Below, piece by piece: positions 11,136 through 42,533 of a stretch of 64,000 nt of DNA. The notes below the pieces were generated by a model. That model saw nothing but the letters and a program-made list of their open reading frames with translations. It was not told the DNA's origin and made no database searches. The position numbers and the translations under genes are program-made. Position 1 is the first letter of the stretch. Every line of letters begins with the position of its first letter. Origin of the DNA: Helicobacter sp. 16-1353 (GTDB lineage Bacteria; Campylobacterota; Campylobacteria; Campylobacterales; Helicobacteraceae); contig NZ_NHYM01000004.1 of the NCBI RefSeq assembly GCF_003288815.1, forward strand, positions 62,001-126,000, read 5' to 3'.

Positions 11136-11519
11136 TTAATCATTTTTAATCATATTCATTACTCTATTATGCGACCCATGATAGCTAGTTTTATAATTTA
11201 GTATATTTCCATCGCTTACTTCCACGCTTACTAGATTTATTATTTTGCCATTTTCATTTGTAAAAGGCTTATAGAAAAATAGCGTCCTCTCTGCGTTTTT
11301 AGTAACAAATAGCGGATTTAATAATGTTGGCAAGATTCCGCCATTTAGGAATTTCCTATTTTCTAGCTTACCATTTTTAACACGCCTAAGATGACTAAAC
11401 GCATACTGCGGATTTATTTTTAGCTCACCCACCGGCGTTTTTATAATGTTATCGCCTTTTGGATTTTTAAACTGATTTACAAATTGCTCTTTATTTAGCC
11501 TTTTTGGAATCATCGCCAT
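11136..11519 (-). CDS. Small PBECR-like (nuclease-fold) protein
   Basis: A 127-residue product whose start overlaps the end of the giant gene by 29 nt in another frame, suggesting translational coupling. It reads TPVGELKINPQYAFSHLRRV, then NPLFVTKNAERTLFFYKPF, then LVSVEVSDGNILNYKTSYHG. This resembles the compact strand-rich BECR/PBECR nuclease-like domains found in phage and conjugative-element polyvalent proteins. It may be a detached terminal domain of the giant protein, an autonomous effector or its partner. The family assignment is by resemblance only. Confidence 0.55.
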   Translation of the reverse strand: MAMIPKRLNKEQFVNQFKNPKGDNIIKTPVGELKINPQYAFSHLRRVKNGKLENRKFLNGGILPTLLNPLFVTKNAERTLFFYKPFTNENGKIINLVSVEVSDGNILNYKTSYHGSHNRVMNMIKND

Positions 11520-23500: not shown

Positions 23501-23964
23501 GGAGAGAATGCTTCTTTTAGATTAAAGTTCGTCTGCATATTTGTAGTAACAAATCTATCGATATTATCTTGGACTTCTTGTATAAACTGCTCTCCTAAAG
23601 CCCTATCGCCATTAGCTATCACATCAGCTACCACTTTTGGGACGACTCCTGCGTTCCCGTCTCGTATGTATTGGATTGCTTCGTTTATGCCATTCTTTAC
23701 ACCACGCCCCACTTTAAAGGCAGTAAATACTGCGATATCAGATATCCCACTTAGTGCCATTTCCTCGCCCATAAATGCGAGTAGCTCCTCTGTGTTCCCC
23801 TCTCTATTTAGAATCATATTATTTACATAGTAGTCCCCTACGCTTCCCATACCAGCACCCAAAGCCCCACCGATGACGCTTCCAACTCCAGCTCCTAGCT
23901 TCCCAGCTCTAGCTCCAGCCTTAGCCCCATAATATGCCCCAGCCATACCAGTAAAGATACCCAT
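11491..23964 (-). CDS. Giant polyvalent-type protein (4157 aa) with repeated PBECR-like domains
   Basis: A single open frame of 12.5 kb. Residues 3-45 are Gly/Ala-rich (YYGAKAGARAGKLGAGVGSV), like a glycine-zipper membrane segment. Long helical regions follow. Four closely similar modules, each containing NEKQGQVSGAFYR[QD]ELGDID and a WIVTAY strand, lie near residues 1808-1928, 2408-2531, 3045-3165 and 3998-4108. Two more distant domains of the same style lie near 690-830 and 1240-1400. A zincin motif HELLH sits near 3611, and a further domain (SGWSRSRNSSWAIEHFEM) near 3780. Linkers repeat IIPQNPKDS. Two tandem copies of a roughly 150-residue domain (MREQGWLKKH / QREQGNIVSL) lie near 2580-2890. 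The architecture fits the polyvalent proteins described from phages and conjugative elements, which protect incoming DNA. The 5' end may be truncated. Confidence 0.75.
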   Translation of the reverse strand: MGIFTGMAGAYYGAKAGARAGKLGAGVGSVIGGALGAGMGSVGDYYVNNMILNREGNTEELLAFMGEEMALSGISDIAVFTAFKVGRGVKNGINEAIQYIRDGNAGVVPKVVADVIANGDRALGEQFIQEVQDNIDRFVTTNMQTNFNLKEAFSPFQSNSANAKKIQKIAWDIAYTQPRFAGFLGEIIKSEPRVAKNVLEQITNRADNLLIKDSTIDIDELRTAIRDYDKDLSSRYGETIDILDSVMPNERFNITDFLDSKMQEIEANISKDHISGDLDLIRNKIKDKDLSLKELIQARQFINEKFRNIFTRGNYSDKGILMDITSHIDTLMENALKIKGLDSRFKKQWDLINDEYKLWSEFKHGNNGKSKLYNDLMSESYKVNNESLDKVLLQFGKSIKNFDNTLFGKLKADTRDSLQIGIVNATIKKNLIELEPNKFVPDYKGLNRALSEVRNIVNPSVKEHIDLIKEISTIFQNDLYFASKISQSHPKLIKNNIAVSVEGKIAMQIASETFKKSMKYLPTQGGRNAAFLYHLRQSTKYSRTPKEFIFNLVSSPHTPPDLLHELKPLIKEWLKHLDYEHLKSNMAMQEVQDNAQNLANLMLENAEKNSKNLIGYDKKELLTYDPQNPTPPINPNGNPSNNGGGGGSPIDSSGGNTIDSTQSIIKEFETLKRYDLPKEKISQEGFNNFVDDVLGKDYASAPNVVRLNDINKDLQDALALPQSSVFLTKKHLSHIRAERKGDKALSPNEIKEIPNIIASAKSALIDTEKRNFIIDFEDMENADKVNFLHFNADKEGNYVVTAKKVLRSELNNPNLQRVEAGIEPAIRQESLSHFTNSRGISTQDEISQARYNPASKDHLANGNQSQTELGTSKPKTPNDATDNIIPQNPKDSPLDSIDSPTPKAEIPPAPKAESSPAKPKPKTKSTQNLKTPRPEKRPFDYAKFKAEHPPLSSYRPKVGDPRIEAKIKKVNEKVSEVYGEKSSYIGHLSSPKYNWVRTQLGESKWEEVVDLYTQKLTEYQKFLERTKGLDEWSSEYMAEKSAYDELVKKNFDNKDVFKEAIKLENEFKNSTNKEIINLKFLTDLWNVYIDEGASGLYRKYKNMLESAETNHALNELYRNQDIEKYRYQKAQMARFSKDYFKREFPHTYDYIRKTYDKDKLANIFSAMQDLYGRQTKGELLKFARKRNVYDKAFIKDYDIAKELESKLLAEQEAKTLSTTKPNSDTPNANDNDIIDLIETSPQKGLDLPIIGEERLSGEVVDYLAKNNKKVAIESINGESLGMKYPNDTKRTLQGSEIKHTLKAHGDSAIEESRGQIAITLEDIANYPNIVKNADEAITSTTDRGLEAIVSFKQINGYYVVVEEVRPKANELAFKTMRKNRGDYKNDIAYKRELPSDLSVTSTASNNSLDKIIPQNPKDSTQRLQDSIIKSTPNSTTYKYDEWETTITHNGDKVDFEIKDTETGKIVKHTQNKESGERIEARLRGFIIEGNTKHNPSLVPYEKLPKTYTFNGKTYKKASKGEYVNLIKRDIKQLKELIGSIEKEVDLGRQQRQENLKLARKLKVYLQRNKAMDRWHPVDAHKENIFGELPIKNQISRLKEKASKLEINEYKYKLAQNEQLLKEVESGKETRFLIELDKEGSFIPTSQTQQLKFSHFVDLKARDRFELRLAEKANKEGLESVARDYLEESNPAKFKRMESFFIENADKLLPAYSALGRDDAYGYFMLRLANFANISIDEFVLFETKRSVKRGGRKDFDELIKSGKSEEEAYKEIVKRYKENNPDLFNFFDNARKNLESAFNITPIKEFGENYAEFYHDGVNAIKKLLNEKQGQVSGAFYRQELGDIDLVWGDSNFGLKHILDKHGKEFGEFGEGEAGIQNAINEIVKNGNIKIDDNARATLEYTTNQGKVYKVGLKQNWKGEPTANKWIVTAYDDVREADKIINSSGLTKGETLPLNSNESIAKNLNQTQSNIKDKNKELLQRLFKVDSLEQDFFLKTPKATESIFNNGILIKGEKLSANDLQDKIAFLNLSKAIIENADALIKQSEDSYSFVYDAFDNIRYVLSVAKNENGEWLLTSKTPLKTNKTIKEISEGRELIHTKTQEQKTFENFINDYAYVWSDLKNIDGTINPKYKIIWESMGDDKMREYMKLVLKGENLTEPQKLAKEALDKEFAEAKKQAEATLAKLQEEKYKHLKPQQTYEDNELIVRISHGAKKTTIKQTDKATGETKINVLPKDEGLSYHLGAENRFNPPKQDVKVDIKAEIEELLKRGREPISYGEVRADREIIDDIKKDVGREADRIIRRIQGEHNEHIRHRDHPEYIGRTGLGTDQIRRYDEKHALDFEIFMENYGKFLKEENGKSVVTDRIGLLQGEISGRTSFGGYLTELDFFRRSLEGYIWDNTDKKYNVIREFGTNYAEFYHDGANAIKKLLNEKQGQVSGAFYRQELGDIDLVWGDSSKGIQHILERRKSDYVKQGFSESEAISKANEFIESLPQIVESGVLKMGESRAFIRNSDNSVVIALDYKGEGDRKWVITAYENTTAPNPPHSQQTRHNTDTSSDVRASGDSGDIIPQNLKDSPVDKIDSTQPLELQEPSKKELVDFLNGYSMREQGWLKKHIADVFDVLKERINRERPIGARGELKSFSNDEMNALMLEKYPTNELLFQGIAKAMKLNDIENDGVDKILPYVKRKLKNKDEIRAWEIILDNNIDINLKRAIANYNPLGAFGAENITNSLKTIKTLKDEVSLLDETQMINKQSIDKDSDLVNKELEPLEPVEPLKVQEFLKHYNQREQGNIVSLLNNTAFELKKIIENETNKRFSFTMEANQAVFREFFNSNENLRNGIAKAYKFNSIDEILPHIKKLKNKDEIKAWNIILDSNIDINLKRGIIEHIDSAYSITEAIRDTKNFVFKIEKQKLLDTIGTNGIAKEYLYDVKGRNKTISNIVDNDDESRFFPHLEVANQHSFESHYKKLRLLSLSNITKDEFIKLEAKDIIDSNRYKINEYYNHLKSKGELKNESLESIAKEQAEKVYTQILSFRSNLEKALNINPIKEFGENYAEFYHDGANAIKKLLNEKQGQVSGAFYRDELGDIDLVWGEVGSGKSDGFGLSKIAKYHPEILEKLDSVIKNGEIVKDAQGRTNIVLGNDIVGLRNNWKGENTNEWIITAYSKKEDSPKFIDSRQANATREGFSPSNPQGDSTTKEIENANDSAVDLQNPPQVQSTEIPPAPAQAIQVPENLKHNKEIIRILSDIEARNRTIDTYKNLAPKANSDKGRIYAENKAKEFQELKNELEAELQAKIKELESKGIATPKAESTKSTEPTEPQTPNTINKIDVDSLDLDNIPSLSKEESDKLYDETINLIRERNAATGEYEKKIDGLIRNGLAKLDGKGGVEYTNAQSYNQIAPLIQKRDELEKLIKSKKTIQELNKLNLPLDLEYWTKRDIYKLALRYKKILDEGEAEGYIITRKGHGLKLKPEFQYRTRAEMQQVANKLFPIARKYHYLKEKLGTTIKELPTDSKPIPTLDLQKEADYKEVIKFFNKHETDQEQKELFEKILPIAKRLGVKVRTAVNTFNDVVMSDEERKKIAGAYFPLMNLSVVKKSTPTERKSKTLLHELLHSVTSRALDKPEILNPIQKRAVNDLNAIYNELKSSTEYAKKQEGLRAFSAGDYGLKNVHEMIAELSNPEFRQKLKAVNLFERVIDAITRLFAFSKDILLNRAAKAGKTGEIVESNAYERIKKAVYDIVDNYDDDFTFKYENSGRIKDETIAAMNANSGYSGWSRSRNSSWAIEHFEMPLSLFNRERMNRLINEIDKYKSDLEDNGVSVEKAKEILKNTSVVDFRESAKKAGRASWHHTGIDFKETDHYSFIDAIAEIAQNGVTKAPKIKAEKLKSEGIGLAVIKEYTGKYPNTRFIGYKTIIGEIKGSWIIEANGTKHNVNANKLIVYTDYKDHTELRKELRENNYSTEHNKKDSSLQRSTEVKRLIGEYLKNKLPKAEPIKKFGVNYSEYYHDGVNAIKKLLNEKQGQVSGAFYRDELGDIDLVWGDSNFGLKHILDKHPQVADEIPNIVKNGELRTENNINTIIFDNGKNTYRIGLSKGWDRKGDNNWIITAYEIDKPVSPRPDVLPSNELTKGDGTNLHPKDTSGEIIAKNGDDSKKAK
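11833..11960 (-). repeat. PBECR-module DNA repeat, copy 4 (C-terminal)
   Basis: About 120 nt encoding the FYHDG...NEKQGQVSGAFYR...DIDLVWG segment, nearly identical to the blocks at 14681, 16597 and 18412. The shared DNA allows recombination between modules. Confidence 0.8.
14681..14802 (-). repeat. PBECR-module DNA repeat, copy 3
   Basis: This copy encodes the same segment but differs just after DIDLVWG, where it reads EVGSGKSDGFGLSKIAKYH instead of DSNFGLKHILDKH. The conserved core is therefore joined to variable downstream halves. Confidence 0.8.
16597..16726 (-). repeat. PBECR-module DNA repeat, copy 2
   Basis: This copy encodes the same core followed by DSSKGIQHILERRKSDYVKQ, again a distinct downstream half joined to a nearly identical core. 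Confidence 0.8.
18412..18540 (-). repeat. PBECR-module DNA repeat, copy 1
   Basis: This copy encodes the core followed by DSNFGLKHILDKHGKEFGEF. It shares DSNFGLKHILDKH with copy 4, so copies 1 and 4 are the closest pair. Confidence 0.8.
21491..21507 (+). other. tRNA T-arm-like sequence inside the giant gene
   Basis: GCAGG-TTCGATT-CCTGC, on the strand opposite to the coding strand, has exactly the form of a tRNA T arm and is followed by TTCGACCC. No other tRNA arms are recognisable upstream. It could be an integration scar carrying a tRNA 3' end, or chance. Confidence 0.3.
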
Positions 23965-29478: not shown

Positions 29479-32400
29479 ATGAGTTTAAGTTTAGGAATTG
29501 ATGTTGGTTCGACGACTGCGAAGGTAGTTTTACTCGAGGGCGAGGAGATAATCTTCTCAAAATACGAGCGACACTACTCAAAAGTGCGTGAAAAAAGCAT
29601 AGAAATTTTAAAAGATTTGAGAGAAAAAATCGGCGATAAACGCTTTAGCGTAGCAATCTCCGGTAGTGCTGGCTTTGGCATTTCAAAAATCACAAATATC
29701 GACTTCGTTCAAGAGGTTTTCGCCACGGCTGAAGCAGTAAAAAAGCTAATCCCAGACACCGATGCAGTAATCGAGCTAGGAGGCGAGGACGCCAAAATAA
29801 TCTTTTTAAGTGGTGGCTTAGAAGAGCGAATGAACGGCTCATGTGCGGGTGGCACAGGCTCATTCATCGACCAAATGATTACGCTGCTAAATGTAACGCC
29901 AGAGGAATTTGATGATTTAAGCCTAAATCACAGCAAAATCTATCCAGTGGCTTCGCGTTGCGGAGTCTTTGCAAAGACCGATGTCCAGCCACTTTTAAAT
30001 CAAGGTATTAAAAAAGAGGATATTTCTGCTTCCATTTTCCAAGCGGTCGTCGAGCAAACTATTTCAGGTCTCGCACAAGGGCGGAAAATCGAGGGCAAGA
30101 TTCTATTTCTTGGCGGACCGCTATTTTACTACAAAGGCTTACAAGAGCGATTTAAGGAGACTTTAAAATTAAGCGATGAAAATGCAGTTTTCCCAGACTT
30201 CGCACAATTCGCCGTGGCAATCGGCGTTGCATTTTATAGTAGCAATAGCAATGTGGATTATTCATGCGATGAGTTGATAGATATTTTTGAAAATGCCAAA
30301 AATACCACGAGTAGGAATAAATATTTAGAGCCACTTTTTAGCTCACAAGCGGACTTAGAGGCATTTGAAAGTCGTCATAATCAAGCCACCACAAACGAAA
30401 TTGATATAAAGGATTTTGTTGGCGATGCTTATCTTGGGATTGACTGCGGTAGCACGACTACAAAGCTAGTATTAATCGATAAAAATGGCGGAATCATCTA
30501 TAAATACTATGGAAGCAATTTGGGGAATCCAGTGCAAGTGATTTTAGATGAGCTAAAAAAGATTTATATCCTTTGTGGTAATCGCATAAAGATTCGTGGC
30601 AGTGGCGTTACAGGCTATGGCGAGGAGCTTATAAAAAGTGCTTTTAAGATTGATATTGGCTTGGTTGAGACTATGGCTCACCTGAATGCCGCAAGATTCT
30701 TTAATCCAAAGGTCGATTTTATCATCGATATCGGCGGACAGGATATGAAGTGCTTTTATATCAAAAATAATTCCATTGATAGCATTATGTTAAATGAGGC
30801 GTGTAGCAGTGGCTGTGGGAGCTTCATAGAGACTTTTGCAAAATCTATGGGCTATGATGTGGAGAGCTTCGCAAAACTTGGGCTAGATTCCAAACACCCA
30901 GTGGAGCTTGGTAGTCGCTGCACGGTGTTTATGAATAGCTCGGTAAAAGAGGCACAAAAAGAGGGTGCGTGTATCGAGGATATAAGTGCTGGGCTTTCTA
31001 TGAGTGTTGTGAAAAATGCGTTATACAAGGTGATTCGTGCAAAAGACGCCGATGATTTGGGGAAAAATATCGTAGTGCAAGGCGGAACATTCCTAAATAA
31101 CGCTATTTTGCGGAGCTTTGAAAAAGAGCTAAATCGCAATGTAATCCGCCCAAAAATCGCCGGACTTATGGGGGCGTATGGCGTGGCATTATTCGCTAGA
31201 GAGTGCAAGGAATCTAGCATTATAACCCAAGCCGAGCTAGAGGGCTTTAGACATATTTCCGCCCCTAGCATTTGCAATATTTGTGGCAATAAATGTCAGC
31301 TTACTATAAATCGCTTTGAGGGTGGGCGAAAACTCATCTCCGGCAATCGATGCGACCGTCCACTAGGCATTAAGAAAAAGACGATTTTCTTGCCAAATAT
31401 CTACGATTATAAGCTAAATAAAATCAAAAATCTAACCATAAAGCTCCAGCATGACGAGGAATTAAAGACATTTAAGGGCAAGGTTGGGATTCCACTTGGG
31501 CTAAATATCTATGAAAATATCGTGTTTTGGCACGAGCTATTTTCCAAATTGGGTTATGAGGTCGTGCTAAGCGATATTTCTACGCGAAAAACCTACGCCA
31601 TAGGGCAGTATAGCATTCCAAGTGATACAGTTTGCTACCCAGCAAAGCTCTTGCACGGACATATTGAGAATCTGCTTTCAAAAGGCGTGGATACGATATT
31701 TTATCCGTGTATGGCTTATAGCTTTGATGATGGAGGGCAGTCTACTACGAATTACAACTGCCCTGTTGTGGCGTTCTATCCGGAGCTTTTAAATCGAAAT
31801 ATCGATAAGCTAAAAAATGTGAGATTCCTATACCCATATTTTGGTCTTCATAGGAGCGAGGACTTTATAAAAAAGGCGTATCCATTCTTTAAAAAGGAAT
31901 TTAAAGCAGATAAAAAGAGCTTCAAACTCGCCGTCCAATCCGCCTATGAGAAGCGACAAATCCAAATTGATGATATTCTAAATCAAGGCACAAAGGCACT
32001 TGAATTTGCCATGCAAAATAATCTTAAATGTATCATTTTAGCTGGTCGCCCATACCACATCGACCCAGAGATTAATCACGGCATAGATAAGCTTATAAAC
32101 TCGCTTGGCGTGGTCGTGCTATCGGAGGATTCCATAAGTGCGGAGATTGGCAAACTTGATATTTTAAATCAGTGGAGTTACCACGCTAGGCTCTATAGTG
32201 CGGCGAATTTCGCTAAGAAATATGACAATGTCGAGCTAGTTCAGCTTGTAAGTTTTGGGTGTGGGATAGATTCCATTACGACCGATGAGGTGCGGAGAAT
32301 CCTAGAAAATGGCGATAAATTCTACACGCAAATAAAAATAGATGAGATAAATAATTTGGGGGCAGTTAAGATTCGCATTCGAAGTCTTTTGAGTGCGATG

Positions 32401-32565
32401 GAAGTGAAGCAAAAAGAGGCTATGGAATCTAGAGAATCCGCTGAATCTGCTGGGAATCCGGAATCCGCGAAAATAGCGGAATCTGAATCTTTAGATTCCA
32501 CAGATTCTATGAAATCTGCCGAATCTAGCCACGAAAAAGCCAAAGAATTAGAATTAAATTATTAA
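29479..32565 (+). CDS. Acyl-CoA dehydratase activase-type ATPase with tandem ASKHA domains and DUF2229
   Basis: A 1028-residue protein with two BcrA/BadF/HgdC-type ATPase domains. The first begins LGIDVGSTTAKVVLLEGEE (residue 4), with NGSCAGGTGSFID near 120. The second begins LGIDCGSTTTKLVLIDKNG near 318, with ACSSGCGSF near 440. These domains usually hold an iron-sulphur cluster at a subunit interface and use ATP to inject an electron into a (R)-2-hydroxyacyl-CoA dehydratase-like partner. A DUF2229-type region follows, with CNICGNKC near 599 and a conserved SDTVCYP segment near 715. The last ~45 residues are Glu/Ser/Asp-rich and encoded by GATTC/GAATC words. The next gene, in the same frame 18 nt later, supplies the HgdB-like part. 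The physiological substrate is unknown. Confidence 0.87.
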   Translation: MSLSLGIDVGSTTAKVVLLEGEEIIFSKYERHYSKVREKSIEILKDLREKIGDKRFSVAISGSAGFGISKITNIDFVQEVFATAEAVKKLIPDTDAVIELGGEDAKIIFLSGGLEERMNGSCAGGTGSFIDQMITLLNVTPEEFDDLSLNHSKIYPVASRCGVFAKTDVQPLLNQGIKKEDISASIFQAVVEQTISGLAQGRKIEGKILFLGGPLFYYKGLQERFKETLKLSDENAVFPDFAQFAVAIGVAFYSSNSNVDYSCDELIDIFENAKNTTSRNKYLEPLFSSQADLEAFESRHNQATTNEIDIKDFVGDAYLGIDCGSTTTKLVLIDKNGGIIYKYYGSNLGNPVQVILDELKKIYILCGNRIKIRGSGVTGYGEELIKSAFKIDIGLVETMAHLNAARFFNPKVDFIIDIGGQDMKCFYIKNNSIDSIMLNEACSSGCGSFIETFAKSMGYDVESFAKLGLDSKHPVELGSRCTVFMNSSVKEAQKEGACIEDISAGLSMSVVKNALYKVIRAKDADDLGKNIVVQGGTFLNNAILRSFEKELNRNVIRPKIAGLMGAYGVALFARECKESSIITQAELEGFRHISAPSICNICGNKCQLTINRFEGGRKLISGNRCDRPLGIKKKTIFLPNIYDYKLNKIKNLTIKLQHDEELKTFKGKVGIPLGLNIYENIVFWHELFSKLGYEVVLSDISTRKTYAIGQYSIPSDTVCYPAKLLHGHIENLLSKGVDTIFYPCMAYSFDDGGQSTTNYNCPVVAFYPELLNRNIDKLKNVRFLYPYFGLHRSEDFIKKAYPFFKKEFKADKKSFKLAVQSAYEKRQIQIDDILNQGTKALEFAMQNNLKCIILAGRPYHIDPEINHGIDKLINSLGVVVLSEDSISAEIGKLDILNQWSYHARLYSAANFAKKYDNVELVQLVSFGCGIDSITTDEVRRILENGDKFYTQIKIDEINNLGAVKIRIRSLLSAMEVKQKEAMESRESAESAGNPESAKIAESESLDSTDSMKSAESSHEKAKELELNY

Positions 32566-32583: not shown

Positions 32584-33972
32584 ATGACAAAAAGCATGAA
32601 TATGAAAAATCTAGATTCGCAGAATCTTGAATCTAAAAATCCGCATTTGGCGAATCTAGATTCTAAGAATCTAAATCCTAAAAACCCACACAATGTCGAA
32701 TCTTGCTCTAGCAATTGCGATTGTGTGAGTAATACCGAAGACGACTTTGTGAAATTCACGGAGGAGATGAAAGAAACGCACACGATTCTAGTCCCCACAA
32801 TGCTCCCTATCCACTTTCGCTTTATGGTAAATATTTTGAAAAGCTATGGCTACAAGGCGGAATTGCTACAAAATCACGGCACAGAACTCGCCCAAGAGGG
32901 CTTGCGAAATGTGCATAATGACACTTGCTATCCAGCCTTGCTAGTTATAGGGCAGCTTATCGATGCACTCAAAAGTGGGAAATATGATTTGAGTAAAACT
33001 GCACTTCTAATCACGCAGACAGGCGGTGGCTGCAGGGCTTCGAACTATATTTATTTGCTTAGAAAGGCACTTAAAAAAAGTGGCTTTGGGGATATTCCAG
33101 TCGTGTCGCTGAATTTTAGTGGATTTGAGGAGGGACAGGCATTTCGAGTAACTATGCCGATGTTAAAAAAGCTCGTAAATGCCGTCATTATCGGCGATGT
33201 GCTGATGTGCCTACTAAATCAAAGCAAACCATATGAGATAAACGCTGGGGAGAGCGATGAGCTGGTCTCCAAGTGGATTGAACGCATCACAGACGAATCT
33301 CAAAGTAAGGCGTTGGTGGATTTTGGGGCGTTGAAAAAAGATGTGAGGGCGATTTTGAATGATTTTGGGAAGATTTTGCGAAATAATGAGCCAAAAATCA
33401 AGGTTGGAATCGTGGGTGAAATCTATGTGAAATACTCTCCAGTTGGGAATAATAACTTGGAGGAGTTTCTACTAAGCGAGGGTTGCGAGGTGGTGGTGCC
33501 GGGCTTTATGGATTTCTGCTTATATTGTATGAATGATGTAATGCTTGAAAATCGCCTATATGGCGGAAGTTTCGCTAAAAAAATCATTTATAAATTTATT
33601 TATAATATGTTCGTTGGCAAACAAAAAACGATTTACAAGATGATTAAAAAACACGGGATTTTTACCGCTCCAACGAGCTTTGAGCATACCAAAAAGCTAA
33701 TTAAGGGCTATGTCGAAGAGGGCATGAATATGGGCGAGGGGTGGTTGCTGACTGCCGAAATGCTAGAGCTAATCAATAGTGGGGTGAATAATATCGTCTG
33801 CACCCAGCCATTTGGCTGCTTACCAAACCACATCGTGGGACGCGGAATGATGAAAGTCATCAAGGAGAAAAATCCACAAAGTAATATCGTATCAATCGAT
33901 TACGACCCAGGTGCCACGAAAGTAAACCAAGAAAATCGCATTAAGCTAATGCTTGCAAACGCGAAAATGTAG
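32584..33972 (+). CDS. HgdB-like dehydratase-family protein (C-terminal part of the activase system)
   Basis: A 462-residue protein. The first ~50 residues are low-complexity (NLDSQNLESKNPHLANLDSK), built from the same DNA words as the preceding tail. The remainder matches the 2-hydroxyacyl-CoA dehydratase-like domain. Visible segments are HNDTCYPALLVIGQLIDAL with a cluster-type cysteine, TQTGGGCRASNY, FCLYCMNDV and QPFGCLPNHIVGRGM. In many anaerobes this region is fused to the activase and DUF2229 in one protein of about 1400 residues. Here a single stop and 18 nt separate it in the same frame, with a ribosome-binding site (AAGGAAAA) in the gap. The pair should work as one electron-transfer complex. 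Substrate unknown. Confidence 0.82.
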   Translation: MTKSMNMKNLDSQNLESKNPHLANLDSKNLNPKNPHNVESCSSNCDCVSNTEDDFVKFTEEMKETHTILVPTMLPIHFRFMVNILKSYGYKAELLQNHGTELAQEGLRNVHNDTCYPALLVIGQLIDALKSGKYDLSKTALLITQTGGGCRASNYIYLLRKALKKSGFGDIPVVSLNFSGFEEGQAFRVTMPMLKKLVNAVIIGDVLMCLLNQSKPYEINAGESDELVSKWIERITDESQSKALVDFGALKKDVRAILNDFGKILRNNEPKIKVGIVGEIYVKYSPVGNNNLEEFLLSEGCEVVVPGFMDFCLYCMNDVMLENRLYGGSFAKKIIYKFIYNMFVGKQKTIYKMIKKHGIFTAPTSFEHTKKLIKGYVEEGMNMGEGWLLTAEMLELINSGVNNIVCTQPFGCLPNHIVGRGMMKVIKEKNPQSNIVSIDYDPGATKVNQENRIKLMLANAKM

Positions 33973-34210
33973 GGCTTGGCGGGAAATCCGTGCGGGAATC
34001 TAGATTCGCGGAATCTAGGGTGGAATCCGTGCAGAATCTATGCGGAGATTCTGGCTAGATTCTTAGATTCTCACTTAGATTCTCAGCTAAATCCGCCTAG
34101 TTTTTTGGAATCTTGCTTAGATTCCAGCTAGATTTAACCGGATTCTCACTTATATTTTAGACAGATTCTAGCCCAAAGATCACCTAGATTCCCACTAGAT
34201 TCCAGCCCAA
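33973..34210. repeat. Intergenic array of GATTC/GAATC words
   Basis: By hand count about 15 GATTC or GAATC words fall in 230 nt, many as CTAGATTC or TTAGATTC. The spacer separates the convergent HgdB-like gene and the GTPase operon and holds no gene. Confidence 0.8.
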
Positions 34211-34427: not shown

Positions 34428-35915
34428 TTAAGAAAGCCTATCAATGATAGCAAATAGTTTATTCTTCATTTCTAGCAATTCGCTATTATCGCTTTTAAGT
34501 TGCTTGGCTTTGTTGTCGATTTTGTCAATCGTGCCATCAAATGTGATTTTAATGCAGTTTTTATAGCCATTTATTAGTTGCTCTTTTAGCTTATTAATCT
34601 CGCTTTGGGATTTGCTTCTAGCCTCTAGTTGCATTGTCTTTTGTCGCTCCTCTTTTTGATAGCTATTAAACATATCTAATATTGCACTTACTATAAGGAT
34701 TAATGTTTGAGTCCACCCAGCTTTTCCACCTATTTCGTTTATAATCGTTGGTATAAAAGCCTTTACTTGCTCTATTATCTTAGGCAATATTTCGTCGAAT
34801 ATATCACTACTTGGGGCTTCGATATTTGCGAGATTTGTAGTCGCATTTGGGGTGCTAAACTCTAAAAACTCATCAGTTTTTGTCCTTAGCTCTCTCTCTG
34901 CTATTTTCATAATGTTTATTGCTTTTTCATTGATATTTGAGACTTTGGCATTTAGATATTTTTCAATATCACTTTTCTTGCTCTCAATACTGCTTTGTTG
35001 GCTTAGTAGTATCTCTAGGATTCTGCTATCTGCCCCTACTAGTTCATTATTAACCATTTTTTCTAGCTCAATGTTTAGGGATTCTTGCTGCTTTTTTAGA
35101 AGCGTGATTAGCGTTTCGATTTGATTGGATTCCTTATTGTCGATTTTGTTGTCGAGCGTTTCAAGCATATTGTTTATAAAGTTTCTAATGTATTGATTTA
35201 GTGCATTTACGACTTCCTTATGCCCGGATTTTGTTAGGCAGTCATCTATGGCACTTTCAAGCCCTAGAATTTGGCTATCGCTTAATAGTCTATGCTTATT
35301 TTCAATCTTTGCCTTTAGGGCTTCTTTGGCATTCACTATATAAACGCTTATTTTATTCTCAATCTCCTCTATATCGTTTAGCTTCCCAATTCGCTCTAGA
35401 TTTAAATAGACTTTGTTTATGATTTGACGCTCTTGTAATGAGTTTGGATTAATGCCATTTTTATTATTTAAGACCAAGATTATTGGCTTTTTTGCCTTTA
35501 CTACTTCGCCTATTTTCTCATAGACAAACTCCACTTCAAGCGACCCATCAGTGCTAATGACAAATAGCACAATCTCGCTTTTTTCTAACTGCTCTTTTGT
35601 TACCAAGTCATCTTTATTGTCCACATTTATGCCCGGCGTATCAAATATCGTGTAGCCATTATATAAATATTCATGCACCTCTTTAGTCTCTGGGGCATCG
35701 CCCATTTTTGCAACTTCCTTGCCAAATAGAGCATTTATTAGAGTGCTTTTTCCAGTATTATATTCGCCATAGATTATCATCGTTTGCCTAAAGTCTCTAA
35801 TCTTAGAATCTATATGCGAGATAAACTTTTCAATCTCACTAGATTCACATACTTTTTGTGCGACCTGCGTAACCTCATCTTTTATTTTTCTGTAATCGTT
35901 TTTGTCGTTTATCAT
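34428..35915 (-). CDS. Dynamin-like GTPase (495 aa)
   Basis: A dynamin-family GTPase with Walker A IIYGEYNTGKSTLINALF (near 43-60), a switch threonine (APETKEV near 75), G3 IFDTPGIN (near 94) and a G4-like LVLNNKNG (near 146). The C-terminal two thirds are long helices typical of the stalk. A hydrophobic patch (TQTLILIVSAILDMF near 405-420) may insert into membrane. Its start overlaps the stop of the larger GTPase by ATGA, so the two are translationally coupled. Paired dynamin-like proteins in Campylobacter jejuni and the Leo proteins of enterotoxigenic E. coli are the closest analogues I can name; a membrane-remodelling role is inferred. Confidence 0.82.
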   Translation of the reverse strand: MINDKNDYRKIKDEVTQVAQKVCESSEIEKFISHIDSKIRDFRQTMIIYGEYNTGKSTLINALFGKEVAKMGDAPETKEVHEYLYNGYTIFDTPGINVDNKDDLVTKEQLEKSEIVLFVISTDGSLEVEFVYEKIGEVVKAKKPIILVLNNKNGINPNSLQERQIINKVYLNLERIGKLNDIEEIENKISVYIVNAKEALKAKIENKHRLLSDSQILGLESAIDDCLTKSGHKEVVNALNQYIRNFINNMLETLDNKIDNKESNQIETLITLLKKQQESLNIELEKMVNNELVGADSRILEILLSQQSSIESKKSDIEKYLNAKVSNINEKAINIMKIAERELRTKTDEFLEFSTPNATTNLANIEAPSSDIFDEILPKIIEQVKAFIPTIINEIGGKAGWTQTLILIVSAILDMFNSYQKEERQKTMQLEARSKSQSEINKLKEQLINGYKNCIKITFDGTIDKIDNKAKQLKSDNSELLEMKNKLFAIIDRLS

Positions 35916-37717
35916 AATGTTCTCCTTACTTTTTCCATATTATTTTTAAACTTTCCTATCTCTGTTTTTATTGCCCCTATTTCCGTTTTAATATCGCTAA
36001 AGCTCTCGCCTAATTGCAAAAAAGTCGCCTCAAATGCTTGGCTATAAAAAGATTCTACTTTGGCTCTAAAGCCCCTTAAAACAACCTCTTTATTATCACC
36101 AATAAGCGTTTTTTTGACTATTTCATCATCATTAATTATATCAGCCACTTTATCGCCGAATGCAGCTAAGCCGCCGCCGATAATTTTGACAAATGGATTA
36201 GGAAGTATCGCCAGAATGCTTCCTGCAACTTTTGCTCCACCCTTAAAAGCTTTTTTATACCATGGCTCCTCTTTGTGTTTAGTTTCGATAAATATATCTT
36301 CTATCTCAATATCTCCAACCTCAAGACCCTCAAATAGCACACCAAAATCATTGCTGATATTTTGCAGAATCTCGTTTGTGTTATTGGTGATAATCTCACT
36401 TGTCTTAGAGTTTATTTCATTGGTGATTATTTTGCATTTTTCTTTGACATTTTCCTTAGTTGTGCTATCTATGTGCCTATTAAATGCCTTATCTATCGCC
36501 ACTTGCAAATCTACTTGAGATATTTTTTGTGCGTCTTTAAGTTGCCTTAATCCCTCATTAAGCGAATTTTCTAGCTTTTCAATCTTGTTGTATATATCTT
36601 TGATAGACCCCTTAGAATCTGTGGAATCGCTCAAAATTAGGCTTATAAACGCATTCAATCCATCATAAGGCACTTGACTTTTTAAGCTTTTGGCTTTTTT
36701 GATTGCATGGTCTTTCATTAGCTCATAAAATTTTGGGATATTGCTATTTTCAAACATCTCCAAATCGTTATTTTTTATTGCTTCTTTTGCAGTCGCCACA
36801 GAAATAGAGAATATGTCCCCTAGCTTATTTTTTATTTTTTCTTTTGGGATAATTTCATTTATGGTGTTTTTTACATACTCTTCTTGGTTTTTTCTATCTT
36901 TATCATTTTTATTTACTAGCTTTTTAATAATGCTTTCTTCGCATTTATCGCAAGCAGTTTTGCTATCACACTCGCACTCATCGCTTTCGATTATGTCGGA
37001 TTTTGTGATACATATGGTTACCTTTTTATTTTGGTCAAAAAGCTCTTTTATGTTGTCCTGCTCATCTTTTTGTAATGGACTAGTTGATGAAGTGGGGTAG
37101 ATTATATAATCTGCATTTTCTATATATTCCCTTGCTAATGCTCCATTTTCCTTTGTAAGAGAACCAAGCCCCGGCGTGTCAATCCACGCCATTCCACCGA
37201 GATTAAATCGTTGGATTCTATCAGTGCACTCCACCACATCGGTGGCAAATCCGCTTTCTTCAGATTCCCCATTCTCTTTCGTATCTGGCAGCTCTTCTAA
37301 TCGCTCGATTTTATGCCATTTTTTATGTCTGTATTCTAAAAACTCCACTTTTTGTTGTTCTAATTTATTATTTGCGATAAAGTTCCCAAAAGTGCTTTTC
37401 CCAGCCTTAACCTTGCCAAAAATAATAACAATAAACTTATTCTTTAGCTCCGTTCGAAACTTCTCTCTCTCAAGCATTTTGCTAAAGTTATGATTCCACA
37501 TTAAAAACACTTCTTTTAAAGAATTCATAAGTTCCTTAAAAGATTCCTCAATGTCCGGATTTTTAATATTAATATTAATGCCCTCTATGGCATTTTTAAA
37601 GCTATCAATGTGGCTTCTAATCTCACTTCTTGTGTTATCTAGCTTGTTGTTTACATCTGCTATATCTTTTAGCGATTCATATAAAGACACATAAAAGCTA
37701 TTTAGCTGTTCTTTCAT
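35912..37717 (-). CDS. Dynamin-like GTPase (601 aa), LeoA-like
   Basis: This is the largest GTPase of the operon. An N-terminal helical region of about 95 residues precedes Walker A FGKVKAGKSTFGNFIANN (near 100). Then come G3 AWIDTPGLGSL (near 175) and G4 CITKSDII (near 230). Directly after G4 is a cysteine-rich insertion (DECECDSKTACDKCEE) that could bind metal. Helical stalk sequence follows. A Gly/Ala/hydrophobic segment (KKAFKGGAKVAGSILAILPN, then IIGGGLAAFG) near 500-530 is a good candidate membrane paddle. The overall layout resembles LeoA-type bacterial dynamins. The gene shares its stop/start junctions with neighbours on both sides, indicating one mRNA. Confidence 0.82.
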   Translation of the reverse strand: MKEQLNSFYVSLYESLKDIADVNNKLDNTRSEIRSHIDSFKNAIEGININIKNPDIEESFKELMNSLKEVFLMWNHNFSKMLEREKFRTELKNKFIVIIFGKVKAGKSTFGNFIANNKLEQQKVEFLEYRHKKWHKIERLEELPDTKENGESEESGFATDVVECTDRIQRFNLGGMAWIDTPGLGSLTKENGALAREYIENADYIIYPTSSTSPLQKDEQDNIKELFDQNKKVTICITKSDIIESDECECDSKTACDKCEESIIKKLVNKNDKDRKNQEEYVKNTINEIIPKEKIKNKLGDIFSISVATAKEAIKNNDLEMFENSNIPKFYELMKDHAIKKAKSLKSQVPYDGLNAFISLILSDSTDSKGSIKDIYNKIEKLENSLNEGLRQLKDAQKISQVDLQVAIDKAFNRHIDSTTKENVKEKCKIITNEINSKTSEIITNNTNEILQNISNDFGVLFEGLEVGDIEIEDIFIETKHKEEPWYKKAFKGGAKVAGSILAILPNPFVKIIGGGLAAFGDKVADIINDDEIVKKTLIGDNKEVVLRGFRAKVESFYSQAFEATFLQLGESFSDIKTEIGAIKTEIGKFKNNMEKVRRTL

Positions 37718-38148
37718 TATAATCTCCTTATTAATTCACTTAAAGTAGCAAGCCTTTCATTAAGGCTTCTTTGCCCTACTTCATTCATAATTACATTGTC
37801 AACACCTCTAATCTCTCCGCCCCTTATATTTTCTAGCTCTTTAATTGTCGCCTCAATTCCCTCTATATCATCATTAAGATAGTCAATATTTTCGTCTAAA
37901 GTGGCAATTTGATGTTCTAGCCTCCTAAGTTCTACTTTTATGGGTTCTTTTATTGAGAATTCTGTCTCTATAGGCATTATTTTTACAGGTTCTTTTCTTT
38001 GGACTTGCTCATGTTGTTCTTTTGCAAGTTTTTCAGAATCCTCTTGTGGAGCTTTGTCATTTTCGTTGTCGGCAAACAAATCGTAAGCAAGTTTTCCAAT
38101 AGTTGCTACTGCGACCACTCCGCCGATTACGGGTAAAAACGGTATCAT
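37717..38148 (-). CDS. Membrane-anchored coiled-coil protein
   Basis: I place the start at ATG 38148 because AAAGGAGAGG lies just before it; an upstream ATG at 38184 lies inside the previous gene. The 143-residue product begins with one transmembrane helix (IPFLPVIGGVVAVATIGKLA), then a charged linker and a coiled coil of about 60 residues (LRRLEHQIATLDENIDYLND and beyond). It lies between two GTPase genes and could be a membrane receptor or adaptor for them. No family is recognised. Its stop and the start of the 601-residue GTPase share a base. Confidence 0.65.
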   Translation of the reverse strand: MIPFLPVIGGVVAVATIGKLAYDLFADNENDKAPQEDSEKLAKEQHEQVQRKEPVKIMPIETEFSIKEPIKVELRRLEHQIATLDENIDYLNDDIEGIEATIKELENIRGGEIRGVDNVIMNEVGQRSLNERLATLSELIRRL

Positions 38149-38159
38149 ATCCTCTCCTT

Positions 38160-38990
38160 TTATTGATTTAAGTGTGCATTCCATTCACTAACTTTTCTAG
38201 CTAGTTTGGCTCTTTGATTTTCTAGTTTGTCCTTTTCTAGTTGGATTCTCTCTCTTTGTGTTTTAAGTTTTTGTATGTATTCGTCGCATTTTAGAGCTAG
38301 GCGATTTTTCTTTGCTTGCATAATTGTATTTCCATATTTTTCAATTAAGGTATTTATCTCTACTCTAATCTTGTCAATATTGCTATTTTCAACTAGCCTG
38401 TTTTTGTTCTCCTTTTTGCCTTTTATATAGTTTTTAGACGATGTGGCGATAACCTTATTGTTAATTGCTTGATTTGGAGTGCCAAAAATATCTATTATCT
38501 GCCGTTTCATTTTATTACTAATCTTATCTATGTCGCTTTGTTGCAAACTATCAGCTCTAGATAACACAAAGATATTTTTGTTTATGAAATCATTAGGATT
38601 ATCCCAATTGCTTTTTATGTGGTGCAAAAAATTCATTTCCGGCTGGTTAAATTCGCCCTCTGCACCATTATGAACGAATATATTAAAATCAGCTTCCCTT
38701 ATGGCATCAATTGCCCTTTTGTCGTCATTTTCCCTTGCATTTAAGCCCGGCGTATCGATATACTCAATATTTTCGTAAACAAAAGATTTGTTTTTAGCAG
38801 TCGTTCGCACATCGCCGATTTTAAAAGTTTTTTCTTCAAAATCATCAATTAAGGCGTTCATAAGAGAGCTTTTTCCGTGGTTATAAAGCCCCGTGCAAGT
38901 GATTTTTACGACATTATTTTGGATATTCTTTCGCAATATTTCTAGGATTTTTATATCCTCTCTAGATAGGTATTTGTCCATTTTGCTCAT
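38160..38990 (-). CDS. Small dynamin-like / Era-like GTPase (276 aa)
   Basis: A GTPase with Walker A TGLYNHGKSSLMNALI (near 32-47), switch threonines in DVRTTAKN, G3 EYIDTPGLNA (near 75-84), and a G4 site in FVLSRADSL (near 143-151). The C-terminal ~60 residues form a basic coiled coil (AKKNRLALKCDEYIQKLKTQ and onward). It is much shorter than the two other GTPases and lacks a long stalk. It may act as a regulator or hetero-oligomer partner, as in LeoBC or the C. jejuni dynamin-like pair (analogy). It starts 10 nt after the TerB-like gene. Confidence 0.8.
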   Translation of the reverse strand: MSKMDKYLSREDIKILEILRKNIQNNVVKITCTGLYNHGKSSLMNALIDDFEEKTFKIGDVRTTAKNKSFVYENIEYIDTPGLNARENDDKRAIDAIREADFNIFVHNGAEGEFNQPEMNFLHHIKSNWDNPNDFINKNIFVLSRADSLQQSDIDKISNKMKRQIIDIFGTPNQAINNKVIATSSKNYIKGKKENKNRLVENSNIDKIRVEINTLIEKYGNTIMQAKKNRLALKCDEYIQKLKTQRERIQLEKDKLENQRAKLARKVSEWNAHLNQ

Positions 38991-40183: not shown

Positions 40184-41401
40184 ATGCTAATCGATAGTTT
40201 TGGTCGTAGTATCGACTATATCCGCGTGTCTGTAACGAAAAATTGCAATTTTCGCTGTTTGTATTGTATGCCTGATACGCCCGATGAAATTAAGGAGAAT
40301 CTAATCCCACTAAACCAAATGCTAGAGTTTCTAAAAATTGCTATGGATTTGGGCGTGAGAAAAGTGCGATTAACTGGTGGAGAGCCACTTTTGAGAGGCG
40401 ATTTAAGCGAATTTGTAAGGGGGATTTATAGCTATAAAAACGATGTGGAAGTCGCCCTAACTACGAATGGATTCTTGCTTAAAAAATACGCAAAAGAGCT
40501 TAAAAATGCGGGGTTAAAACGGATAAATGTCTCGCTTGATAGTTTGCAATCGCATAAAATTAGCACCATTTCAAAGAAAAATGACGCACTAGATTCTATC
40601 TTAGAGGGCATTTTTTTGGCGAAAAATGTCGGTCTTGGCGTAAAAATCAATATGGTTCCGCTAAAAAATATCAATGAAAATGAGATTATCGATTTATTAG
40701 AGTTTGCCAATAAAAATGGCTTTCTAATCCGCTATATTGAGTATATGGATAACACATTCGCAAAAAGCGGTATTGTAGGGCTTAGGAGCGAAGAGATACT
40801 AAAAATAATTGATAAAAAATACCGCTATAAAATGTTACAAAAAGAGCATTTTGGACCCGCGAAATTATATGAGATTGAGGGACTAAGTGGGGAATCTAAA
40901 GCGTTAGATTCTATAAATTCACTAGATTCGGCGGAATCTAAGAATCTAGATTCCGTGATTTTAAGAGATTCGGCGGATTTGAAAAATTCAGCAGAATCTT
41001 GGGATTCTGTGGATTCCAAGAATCTAGATTCGGCAAGTTTGATAGAATCTAATTACTCGCTGGATTCGGCAGAATCTGGGGATTTTAAGAATCTAGATTC
41101 CACAGATTCCACCACAAATCCAAGTAAATTTAAAACCACCAAAAAGCCCGTATTTGGGATTATCGCTCCACATAATGATGAGTTTTGTTTATCTTGCAAT
41201 AGGATTCGCCTAAGTGCTGAGGGGATTATTTTCCCCTGCCTATATTTCGAAGATGCGGTAGATGCGAGTGTGGCGATACGAAGTGGCGATAAAATTGCGA
41301 TGAAAGAGGCACTTTTGAAATCCATTTGCAATAAACCAGAAAAAAATAAATGGGGAGAAAACGAGCGTTCAAATCGTGCATTCTACCACACTGGCGGATA
41401 A
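40184..41401 (+). CDS. moaA: GTP 3',8-cyclase with a low-complexity insertion
   Basis: MoaA is the radical SAM enzyme that starts molybdenum cofactor synthesis from GTP. The N-terminal cluster C21-x3-C25-x2-C28 (NCNFRCLYCMP), VRLTGGEPLLR near 62, and the C-terminal FCLSCNRIRLSAEG with a third cysteine (IFPCLYF) that binds the second 4Fe-4S cluster are all present. The essential GG C-terminus is also there. At 405 residues it is about 80 longer than usual. The excess is a Ser/Asp/Glu-rich tract (about residues 236-316; SLDSAESKNLDS-type repeats) placed just before the C-terminal cysteine motif. The frame is kept, so the enzyme is probably active with a disordered loop. RBS: AAAGGAG. Confidence 0.95.
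   Translation: MLIDSFGRSIDYIRVSVTKNCNFRCLYCMPDTPDEIKENLIPLNQMLEFLKIAMDLGVRKVRLTGGEPLLRGDLSEFVRGIYSYKNDVEVALTTNGFLLKKYAKELKNAGLKRINVSLDSLQSHKISTISKKNDALDSILEGIFLAKNVGLGVKINMVPLKNINENEIIDLLEFANKNGFLIRYIEYMDNTFAKSGIVGLRSEEILKIIDKKYRYKMLQKEHFGPAKLYEIEGLSGESKALDSINSLDSAESKNLDSVILRDSADLKNSAESWDSVDSKNLDSASLIESNYSLDSAESGDFKNLDSTDSTTNPSKFKTTKKPVFGIIAPHNDEFCLSCNRIRLSAEGIIFPCLYFEDAVDASVAIRSGDKIAMKEALLKSICNKPEKNKWGENERSNRAFYHTGG
40894..41115 (+). repeat. GATTC/GAATC expansion within moaA
   Basis: By hand count 18 GATTC or GAATC words occur in about 220 nt. Because the words are read in frame as Asp-Ser or Glu-Ser, the tract encodes LDS, AES and DSV-type repeats without a stop codon. Confidence 0.9.
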
Positions 41402-41664: not shown

Positions 41665-41979
41665 TTACCCAAGTGCTTTTAGTCCAATGGCTGAAGCGAT
41701 GATGATAAAGATAAAAAATATCTTTAAAAACGAGGCAGATTCCCCAAATACTAAAATCCCCACAAGAACGCCTCCACTCGCCCCTATCCCAGTCCAAATC
41801 GCATATGCCACGCCCATTGAAATCCCCTGCATTGCAAGGCTTAGGAAACTTAAGCTCACCATAAATAAAAGTGCAATTGGGAGTATGAATATTTTTTTAT
41901 TGGTTGTTGCGAATTTTTTCATAGTAAATACGCCGGCAATCTCCATACAACCCGCTACGATTAGAAATATCCAGCTCAT
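41665..41979 (-). CDS. Small multidrug resistance (SMR) family protein, short subunit
   Basis: A 104-residue four-helix transporter. The conserved membrane-embedded glutamate is in VAGCMEIAGVFTMKK (residue 13), and the SMR signature GVAYAIWTGIGASGG is near 75. Paired SMR genes usually form heterodimeric exporters (YkkCD or EbrAB style) for guanidinium-type or quaternary ammonium compounds, driven by proton motive force. Its start overlaps the stop of the longer partner by ATGA, so the two are co-translated. Confidence 0.9.
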   Translation of the reverse strand: MSWIFLIVAGCMEIAGVFTMKKFATTNKKIFILPIALLFMVSLSFLSLAMQGISMGVAYAIWTGIGASGGVLVGILVFGESASFLKIFFIFIIIASAIGLKALG

Positions 41980-42533
41980 TTCTCGCCCCCATTTTTTAAC
42001 AAAATCTGTGCTTTTGTGGCTTTATTTTTTGCAGATTCCACAGATTCTGTGAAATTTATAGATTCCGCATTTTTCCTAGATTCGACAAAATCCGCACCAT
42101 TAACATTTTTTATAGATTCCCCAGATTCCCCAAGATTTACAGCATCTAGCACTGAATCTAGCCCAAACTCCGCACTTAAATCTCTAGCTAGTTTCTTATC
42201 ACTTTTATTACTTGTGAGTTTCAAGCCAACTACGCCAATTAAAAGCATTACAATTAATGCGATTTTAATAATGCTTACTTCCTCGCCAAATGCGACCATT
42301 TCAGCGACCACCACTCCAGCCGTGCCAATCCCTACAAACACCGCATAAGCCACGCCTACTTCTACATATTTAATCGCAATCAACATCACACAAAATGAGA
42401 ATAAAATAGCCACTCCAGTTAAGGCGTAAAGCCAAAAGCTATCGGCGTATTTCAATCCGCTAACCCAAAATACCTCTAAGATTCCAGCACTTATGATTAG
42501 AATCCAACTAATGCTTTCTTTGGAGATTTTCAA
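41976..42533 (-). CDS. SMR family protein, long subunit with C-terminal tail
   Basis: The first ~108 residues are a complete SMR protein: the key glutamate in SAGILEVFWVSGLKYAD, then VEVGVAYAVFVGIGTAG, then the last helix IALIVMLLIGVVGLKL. An unusual extension of about 75 residues follows. It is partly low-complexity (NLGESGESIKN, SRKNAESINF, TESVESAKN), encoded by GATTC/GAATC words. The tail should lie at the membrane surface and may be unstructured. The gene is the first of the pair and is transcribed divergently from the aminotransferase gene. Confidence 0.88.
   Translation of the reverse strand: MKISKESISWILIISAGILEVFWVSGLKYADSFWLYALTGVAILFSFCVMLIAIKYVEVGVAYAVFVGIGTAGVVVAEMVAFGEEVSIIKIALIVMLLIGVVGLKLTSNKSDKKLARDLSAEFGLDSVLDAVNLGESGESIKNVNGADFVESRKNAESINFTESVESAKNKATKAQILLKNGGEK

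Follow-up and report, generated by a model that had tools for sequence, protein, structure and literature searches.

A word-dense insert in MoaA and the genome-wide word behind it, a candidate DNA uptake signal of Helicobacter

An in-frame insert dense in the words GATTC and GAATC, found in the moaA gene of Helicobacter sp. 16-1353, is better understood as one instance, the largest sampled, of a word phenomenon that runs through the genome than as a peculiarity of MoaA. The core of the word is AGA(A/T)TCT, with RGAWTCY as a looser form, and the bias toward it acts on the DNA, being seen both in noncoding DNA and in the choice among synonymous codons. We propose that a preference for self DNA during uptake may drive this bias, which would make the word a candidate uptake signal; we hold the case for this to be about evenly balanced. 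The tract lies in a window of 64,000 nucleotides, the whole stretch of DNA that was analyzed, from a genome of 1.907 Mb in 32 contigs (G000 below). Word counts refer to a 464-kb sample of this genome (the window and a further 400 kb), and the word was also followed through 121 genomes of the family. The gene and its insert comprise the following features.

40184..41401, forward strand: moaA open reading frame (ORF), 405 residues, GTP 3′,8-cyclase family, intact except for the insert
40883..41149, forward strand: insert segment, residues about 234-322, with about 86 extra residues that have no same-genus counterpart
40886..41137, forward strand: predicted disordered loop, residues 235-318 with pLDDT below 50, flanked by strands at residues 226-232 and 323-327
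40892..41109, forward strand: word-dense core, whose 218 nt hold 18 GATTC/GAATC words, some of them in the three copies of GAATCTAGATTC
41186..41239, forward strand: C-terminal [4Fe-4S] cysteines C335, C338, and C352, all kept, in invariant columns

The enzyme core looks intact with its catalytic parts kept, in agreement with a preliminary description of the sequence that had called the protein an otherwise normal MoaA. Pfam matches to Radical_SAM (residues 15-175) and Mob_synth_C (residues 302-389) are present, and the six cysteines of both [4Fe-4S] triads all fall in invariant columns of a 14-sequence alignment. The AlphaFold2 model is mostly confident in the core (mean pLDDT of 72.4 overall) and has the MoaA fold, and the nearest solved relative, both by sequence and by fold (Foldseek), is Staphylococcus aureus MoaA (1tv7). 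That protein shares the fold and, in the matched parts, the same cysteines, but is without the roughly 86 extra residues, its matched positions 241 and 249 on either side of the insert site being separated by 7 residues. The preliminary description had reported an Asp/Ser/Glu-rich tract of about 80 residues just before the C-terminal iron-sulfur motif and had proposed a disorder prediction for it. The tract is real and its frame stays open, its site is the hairpin turn before the C-terminal cysteines, and its length is closer to 86 residues than to 80. Since the stretch with pLDDT below 50 lies between two strands, the insert appears to be a long, disordered loop that replaces the hairpin turn, and its effect on MoaA activity is most likely small.

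Four MoaA proteins of the same genus align with residues 1-232/233 and 322-405 and have only 2 to 3 residues between these blocks. From the "GPA" motif to the "FCxxCxR" motif we counted 110 residues here, compared to 22 to 36 in 23 other loci, so that the length is far from identical across relatives. This spacing was measured in 24 of 30 loci; the other six (L018, L019, L022, L024, L028, and L030) are without the motif as written, and their alignments show no long gap at the insert site. Among the loci measured, with one genome per species, the insert is confined to the present species, and its polarity is clear, as no other measured relative has it.

Eighteen words had been counted at 40894-41115. 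The number stands, but 17 of them lie inside that interval (10 GATTC and 7 GAATC) and the eighteenth starts at 40892. By comparison, 1000 dinucleotide shuffles of the tract gave a mean of 2.06 words and a maximum of 7, and the raised word density of the genome predicts 1.38 words (Poisson P 1.5e-14, a value to be read with the caveat that words are somewhat clustered genome-wide, spacings of 30 nt or less making up 24% against 17% expected). No other 218-nt stretch of the window is as dense. By position arithmetic, all ten GATTC and five of the eight GAATC are read in codon frame 0 as Asp-Ser or Glu-Ser, and the three remaining GAATC sit in the palindrome GAATCTAGATTC (Asn-Leu-Asp-Ser), with copies at 40942, 41020, and 41089. 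That most tract words share one codon frame indicates that a protein-level filter also acts. Within the tract, copies of 35 to 47 nt are 62 to 77% alike and unevenly spaced, and Tandem Repeats Finder (TRF) gave no array scoring at least 50 at 40892-41109; the similar units at a fixed period that mark a tandem minisatellite were not found. This suggests that the tract grew by duplication in multiples of three, after which the spacers drifted and the words stayed.

Throughout the G000 sample, GAWTC occurs 2944 times where composition predicts 952, and GASTC 76 times where 472 are expected. The two strands carry equal numbers of AGAATCTA (1039 and 1012). The word had been described as expanding in coding DNA, and so it does in MoaA, but DNA outside called ORFs is at least as dense (GAWTC at 7.77 per kb, compared to 6.05 per kb within them). 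Nor is repeat growth without loss of frame unusual here, as had been supposed, 38 of 386 called ORFs holding clusters of at least four words; the original interpretation is thus partly supported. The sample contains 47 clusters of at least five words, 12 of which overlap no called ORF (at least 100 residues), and two clusters of 18 words, the MoaA tract being the denser. The second 18-word cluster (L033:14870-15204) lies nearly all outside a called ORF. Four further tracts stand in the window.

32425..32525, forward strand: ten-word tract near the C-terminus of a 1028-residue ORF (29479-32565)
32614..32702, forward strand: seven-word tract at the N-terminus of ORF 32584-33972, where a relative's match begins after the tract, at query residue 56
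33996..34202, no strand assigned: 15-word tract overlapping no called ORF
42034..42158, reverse strand: seven-word tract near the C-terminus of ORF 41976-42533

By eye, we take ORF 29479-32565 to resemble a CoA-dehydratase activase. The tract at 33996-34202 also holds what look like decayed words. Elsewhere in the window, a single ORF of 4157 residues (11491-23964, reverse strand), presumably resembling a giant mobile-element protein, contains the phrase NAIKKLLNEKQGQVSGAFYR four times, and a run of ORFs on the reverse strand at 34428-38990 resembles, by eye, dynamin-like or GTP-binding proteins. At the protein level, Asp-Ser dipeptides exceed expectation 1.6-fold in the G000 sample and 2.6-fold in that of G030, another genome of the family. 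GATC is nearly absent from the G000 sample (28 in both-strand counts; observed/expected [o/e] 0.01). Pentamers with GGCC or GTAC are also among the rarest.

Codon choice was compared over the whole gene sample, word tracts included. In G000, Glu is encoded by GAA before TC in 476 of 489 cases (97.3%), compared to 4213 of 7308 (57.6%) elsewhere; Ile by ATC after NGA in 321 of 561 (57.2%), compared to 2300 of 12717 (18.1%; odds ratio 6.06); and Phe by TTC after NGA in 172 of 532 (32.3%), compared to 970 of 6363 (15.2%; odds ratio 2.66). The control contexts are not all flat: Ile ATC after NCA has a raised odds ratio of 1.49 (p 1.2e-5), and a slight rise is seen for Phe TTC after NAA (odds ratio 1.25, p 0.03). 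None of the three word contexts is significantly raised in G021, a member of the genus here called g6, in which GAA is less frequent before TC than in other contexts; this genome has large context effects of another kind (Phe TTC after NCA, odds ratio 5.6).

The same gene sample, tracts again included, was used for the retention of codons between species. In the largest species pair, GAA before TC was retained in 302 of 307 cases, compared to 2546 of 3192 elsewhere, and seven of nine word contexts showed an increase (p no higher than 0.016). The two exceptions were Ser TCC, without an increase, and Ser TCA, whose end falls outside the preferred word and whose retention was lower. Several word contexts were nonsignificant in the two smaller pairs, and the control Ile ATC after NCA moved in opposite directions, up in one pair (p 0.003) and down in another (p 0.006). 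Among 5-mers ranked by conservation, the word stood at 5 of 486 and 2 of 373 at 87-89% identity, and at 74 of 365 and 50 of 330 at about 81.6% identity. In the first of two pairs, AGAWTCT was 92.2% identical, the 10 bases next to it 84.2%, and the sequence overall 86.7%; in the second, the values were 94.0%, 88.0%, and 88.6%, respectively. Control words differed little from their own flanks. Better conservation than the flanks, as expected of an uptake sequence, was thus found in two pairs at 87-89% identity.

Substitution is the main mode of word gain, and in-frame growth of tracts is a second, rarer one. A homologue was found for 138 of 418 ORFs, the samples of the relatives covering part of each genome, and these 138 contain 22 insertions of at least 10 residues; words are present in 14 of them, and the longest is the one in MoaA. 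Isolated words lie within insertions in 9 of 517 cases (1.7%), the background being 1.9%, and clustered words in 58 of 362 (16%). As isolated words are no commoner in insertions than residues generally, most of them arose by substitution. The in-frame insertions are dense in words (30.7 per kb); outside MoaA their polarity, a gain here or a loss in the homologue, rests on one homologue per gene. In close pairs, words were not clearly more often gapped than other k-mers, which indicates that insertions are rare on that time scale. DNA shared with a sister species carries 2.14, 1.95, and 2.48 AGAWTCT per kb in three comparisons, compared to 1.62, 1.57, and 1.82 in DNA missing from the sister; unaligned DNA has 19-27% fewer AGAWTCT and 6-17% fewer GAWTC, with a G+C content that is also lower.

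To follow the word over the family, AGAATCTA was counted in the 121 genomes with the same pattern reversed as the control. Outside genus g6, 77 of the 87 genomes have a word-to-control ratio of 2 or more, compared to 1 of 34 within it, and the genus medians run from 29.6 (g11) down to 1.6 (g9), with 1.08 in g6. In G030, a genome of 2.7 Mb, the count reaches 9796, or roughly one copy every 276 bases. In an order-level draw of 199 genomes, 16 of them in the family, the only genomes outside the family with more than 300 copies were G036 (650, control 135) and G039 (379, control 95), and some copy-poor genomes also show a ratio above 2. Ranked by z-score, AGAATCT heads the 7-mers in the samples of G000, G004, G003, and G024 and comes second in that of G030, at 36 times expectation; it is not among the top 7-mers in the samples of G021 or of G015. 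The o/e of GASTC is 0.26-0.59 in five word-rich samples and 0.85-0.88 in G021 and G015, and that of the neighbor AGACTCT, one transition off, is 0.28-0.86 compared to 1.46 and 1.73. No report of the word was found in the open-access literature searched, which is weak evidence of absence; the accessible part of a 30-genome spaced-motif analysis covering Helicobacter hepaticus mentions only the Shine-Dalgarno motif for that species (PMC5217627).

A further property expected of an uptake sequence, strong genome-wide over-representation on both strands, is seen here, and so is the presence of a competence component of the pilus or type II kind in the host genomes. T2SSF (PF00482) is matched in 86 of the 121 genomes, that is, in 86 of the 87 outside g6 and in none of the 34 within it; by subtraction, the 35 genomes without a match are these 34 and the incomplete G097. 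A fuller gene row was taken from G000 alone, in which a secretin, an unnamed ORF, the T2SSE ATPase, and T2SSF are encoded by four consecutive ORFs, a row that resembles the type II secretion-like transformation system of Campylobacter as outlined in the available part of PMC539331. Since the word and T2SSF are both absent from one genus, the two absences probably reflect one event. VirB8, a marker of a type IV secretion route, was found in all 34 g6 genomes and in 31 of the 87 others, which makes it an imperfect separator of the groups.

In many respects, the word is like the DNA uptake sequence (DUS) of Neisseria and the uptake signal sequence (USS) of Haemophilus, as characterized in sections of PMC2397512, PMC1939737, PMC1626085, and PMC3630211: a short word that recurs many times on the two strands, better conserved than its flanks and dense in noncoding DNA, with isolated copies that look like substitutions, in hosts with type IV pilus or type II-like competence genes. 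The profile of conservation across word and flanks resembles that of the neisserial DUS in the relevant part of PMC2397512. The Helicobacter word differs in being another, pseudo-palindromic word with up to 18 copies in one tract and in forming in-frame insertions inside proteins, where the USS of H. influenzae are reported not to be insertions. We infer biased uptake from the DUS/USS-like profile together with the distribution of the competence component and the uptake by Campylobacter jejuni of DNA methylated at RAATTY. Under such a bias, gains of the word would be favored genome-wide, and duplication of words in a tolerant loop would be favored as any other gain; in MoaA this would have filled the hairpin turn with some 86 hydrophilic, predicted-disordered, Asp/Ser/Glu-rich residues. 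More tentatively, and with somewhat less confidence than in a role in uptake as such, AGA(A/T)TCT could be the uptake word of Helicobacter outside g6 and could have run away, converting sites by substitution, swelling genes and spacers with tracts, and reshaping the proteome, with the genus that lacks the competence component also wordless. Several findings speak against uptake. A single genus lacks both the word and T2SSF, and genera g2 and g9 have T2SSF yet little word excess (median ratios 1.85 and 1.62); the thinning of words in DNA missing from sister species is only mild, whereas DUS are described as absent from recently acquired genes (PMC2397512); the tracts, unlike the USS, involve insertions; the conservation rank of the word falls at about 81.6% identity; the codon-context controls are not all flat, and the shared frame of most tract words points to a filter on the protein; and the symmetrical word resembles the site of a methyltransferase.

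This last resemblance leads to the alternative that survives best, if as an unlikely one: the word (GAWTC or RGAWTCY) would be recognized by a DNA methyltransferase or by a restriction-modification system, and methylation, not uptake, would give it value, for example, as an epigenetic or self mark. A short symmetrical word is typical of type II sites, G000 has 14 N6_N4_Mtase and 11 D12 matches, GASTC is depleted in the word-rich genomes, and a match to RAMA, a domain of GANTC-type methyltransferases, occurs in ten genomes outside g6, including G002 and the word-richest G030. Uptake in C. jejuni is reported to be restricted to DNA that carries methylation at RAATTY, a different word (PMC10046745), so that a methyl mark and an uptake signal may be one and the same. 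However, restriction sites are normally avoided, as GATC is here, and not enriched, and neither of two methyltransferase families surveyed across the genomes follows the distribution of the Helicobacter word. G000, G001, G003, and G004 have no RAMA methyltransferase, 21 of the 31 genomes with RAMA (out of 121) belong to the word-poor g6, and D12, present in 107 of 121 genomes, is missing from the word-rich G003, G016, and G019. Neither a CcrM/HinfI-type enzyme with RAMA nor a D12-type enzyme thus accompanies the word in the word-rich genomes as a whole, and on this distribution both were rejected as the general cause. When 11 N6_N4 methyltransferases of G000 were compared with the partial-genome samples of relatives, eight were unmatched at E 1e-15, and the other three had partial matches (26-47% over 154-205 residues). 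One methyltransferase gene of G000 (L128:1465-2490, reverse strand) has an N-terminal NPKNPAKNP-like repeat tract.

It is rather improbable that the word serves maintenance within the cell as a site, akin to HIP1, Chi, or KOPS, for a protein of the nucleoid, of segregation, or of recombination. HIP1 of cyanobacteria is a palindromic word iterated genome-wide, and the present word, different and from another phylum, is likewise palindromic, genome-wide, conserved, and found on both strands and in and out of called ORFs. Polar sites of the Chi or KOPS kind would show a strand bias, which is absent overall, making a Chi-like site unlikely, and clusters of 18 words in 218-335 nt would be unexpected for sites whose function depends on spacing.

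We also consider it improbable that the tracts reflect plain repeat instability, that is, a minisatellite that arose by slippage or unequal exchange and then decayed, with a functionless word. The likeness of the copies within the MoaA tract, word spacings that peak at 7, 9, 12, and 18 in the G000 sample, and the share of longer insertions that contain words would all fit such a process, which overlaps with biased uptake and may be its local growth step. It is unlikely to be the only cause: isolated words occur in insertions at the background rate, synonymous codons and their retention favor the word across the gene sample with the tracts included, and the MoaA tract yields no scoring array in TRF.

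A bias of mutation or repair that turns near-words into words, with no part for uptake, appears quite improbable. It would account for the depletion of AGACTCT in the word-rich samples, but it leaves the word-dense in-frame insertions unexplained, and we judge the excess of AGAATCT, 6- to 36-fold, to be large for such a bias. Finally, selection on a functional Asp/Ser/Glu-rich loop in MoaA, for partner binding or phosphorylation, for instance, would explain the prevailing Asp-Ser/Glu-Ser frame but is highly improbable, and protein-level repeat selection was rejected as the driver, since words also fill other proteins and non-ORF DNA (15 at 33996-34202), the choice of Ser and Glu codons follows the word and not the residue, and the loop is predicted to be disordered and is absent from all 23 other measured loci.

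Returning to biased uptake, if the word is an uptake signal, sequence-specific uptake words would extend beyond the Neisseriaceae and Pasteurellaceae to the present family, and a reason why genus g6 differs would be suggested. With the 121 genomes of the family ranging from a lack of excess to almost 10,000 copies of AGAATCTA, an uptake drive can be tested against other functions of the word. The low-complexity Asp-Ser/Glu-Ser loops of these proteins may then be a by-product of the DNA and not an adaptation of the protein, and the word, if an uptake signal, would offer a clear case of a DNA-level drive that inserts tens of residues into conserved enzymes.
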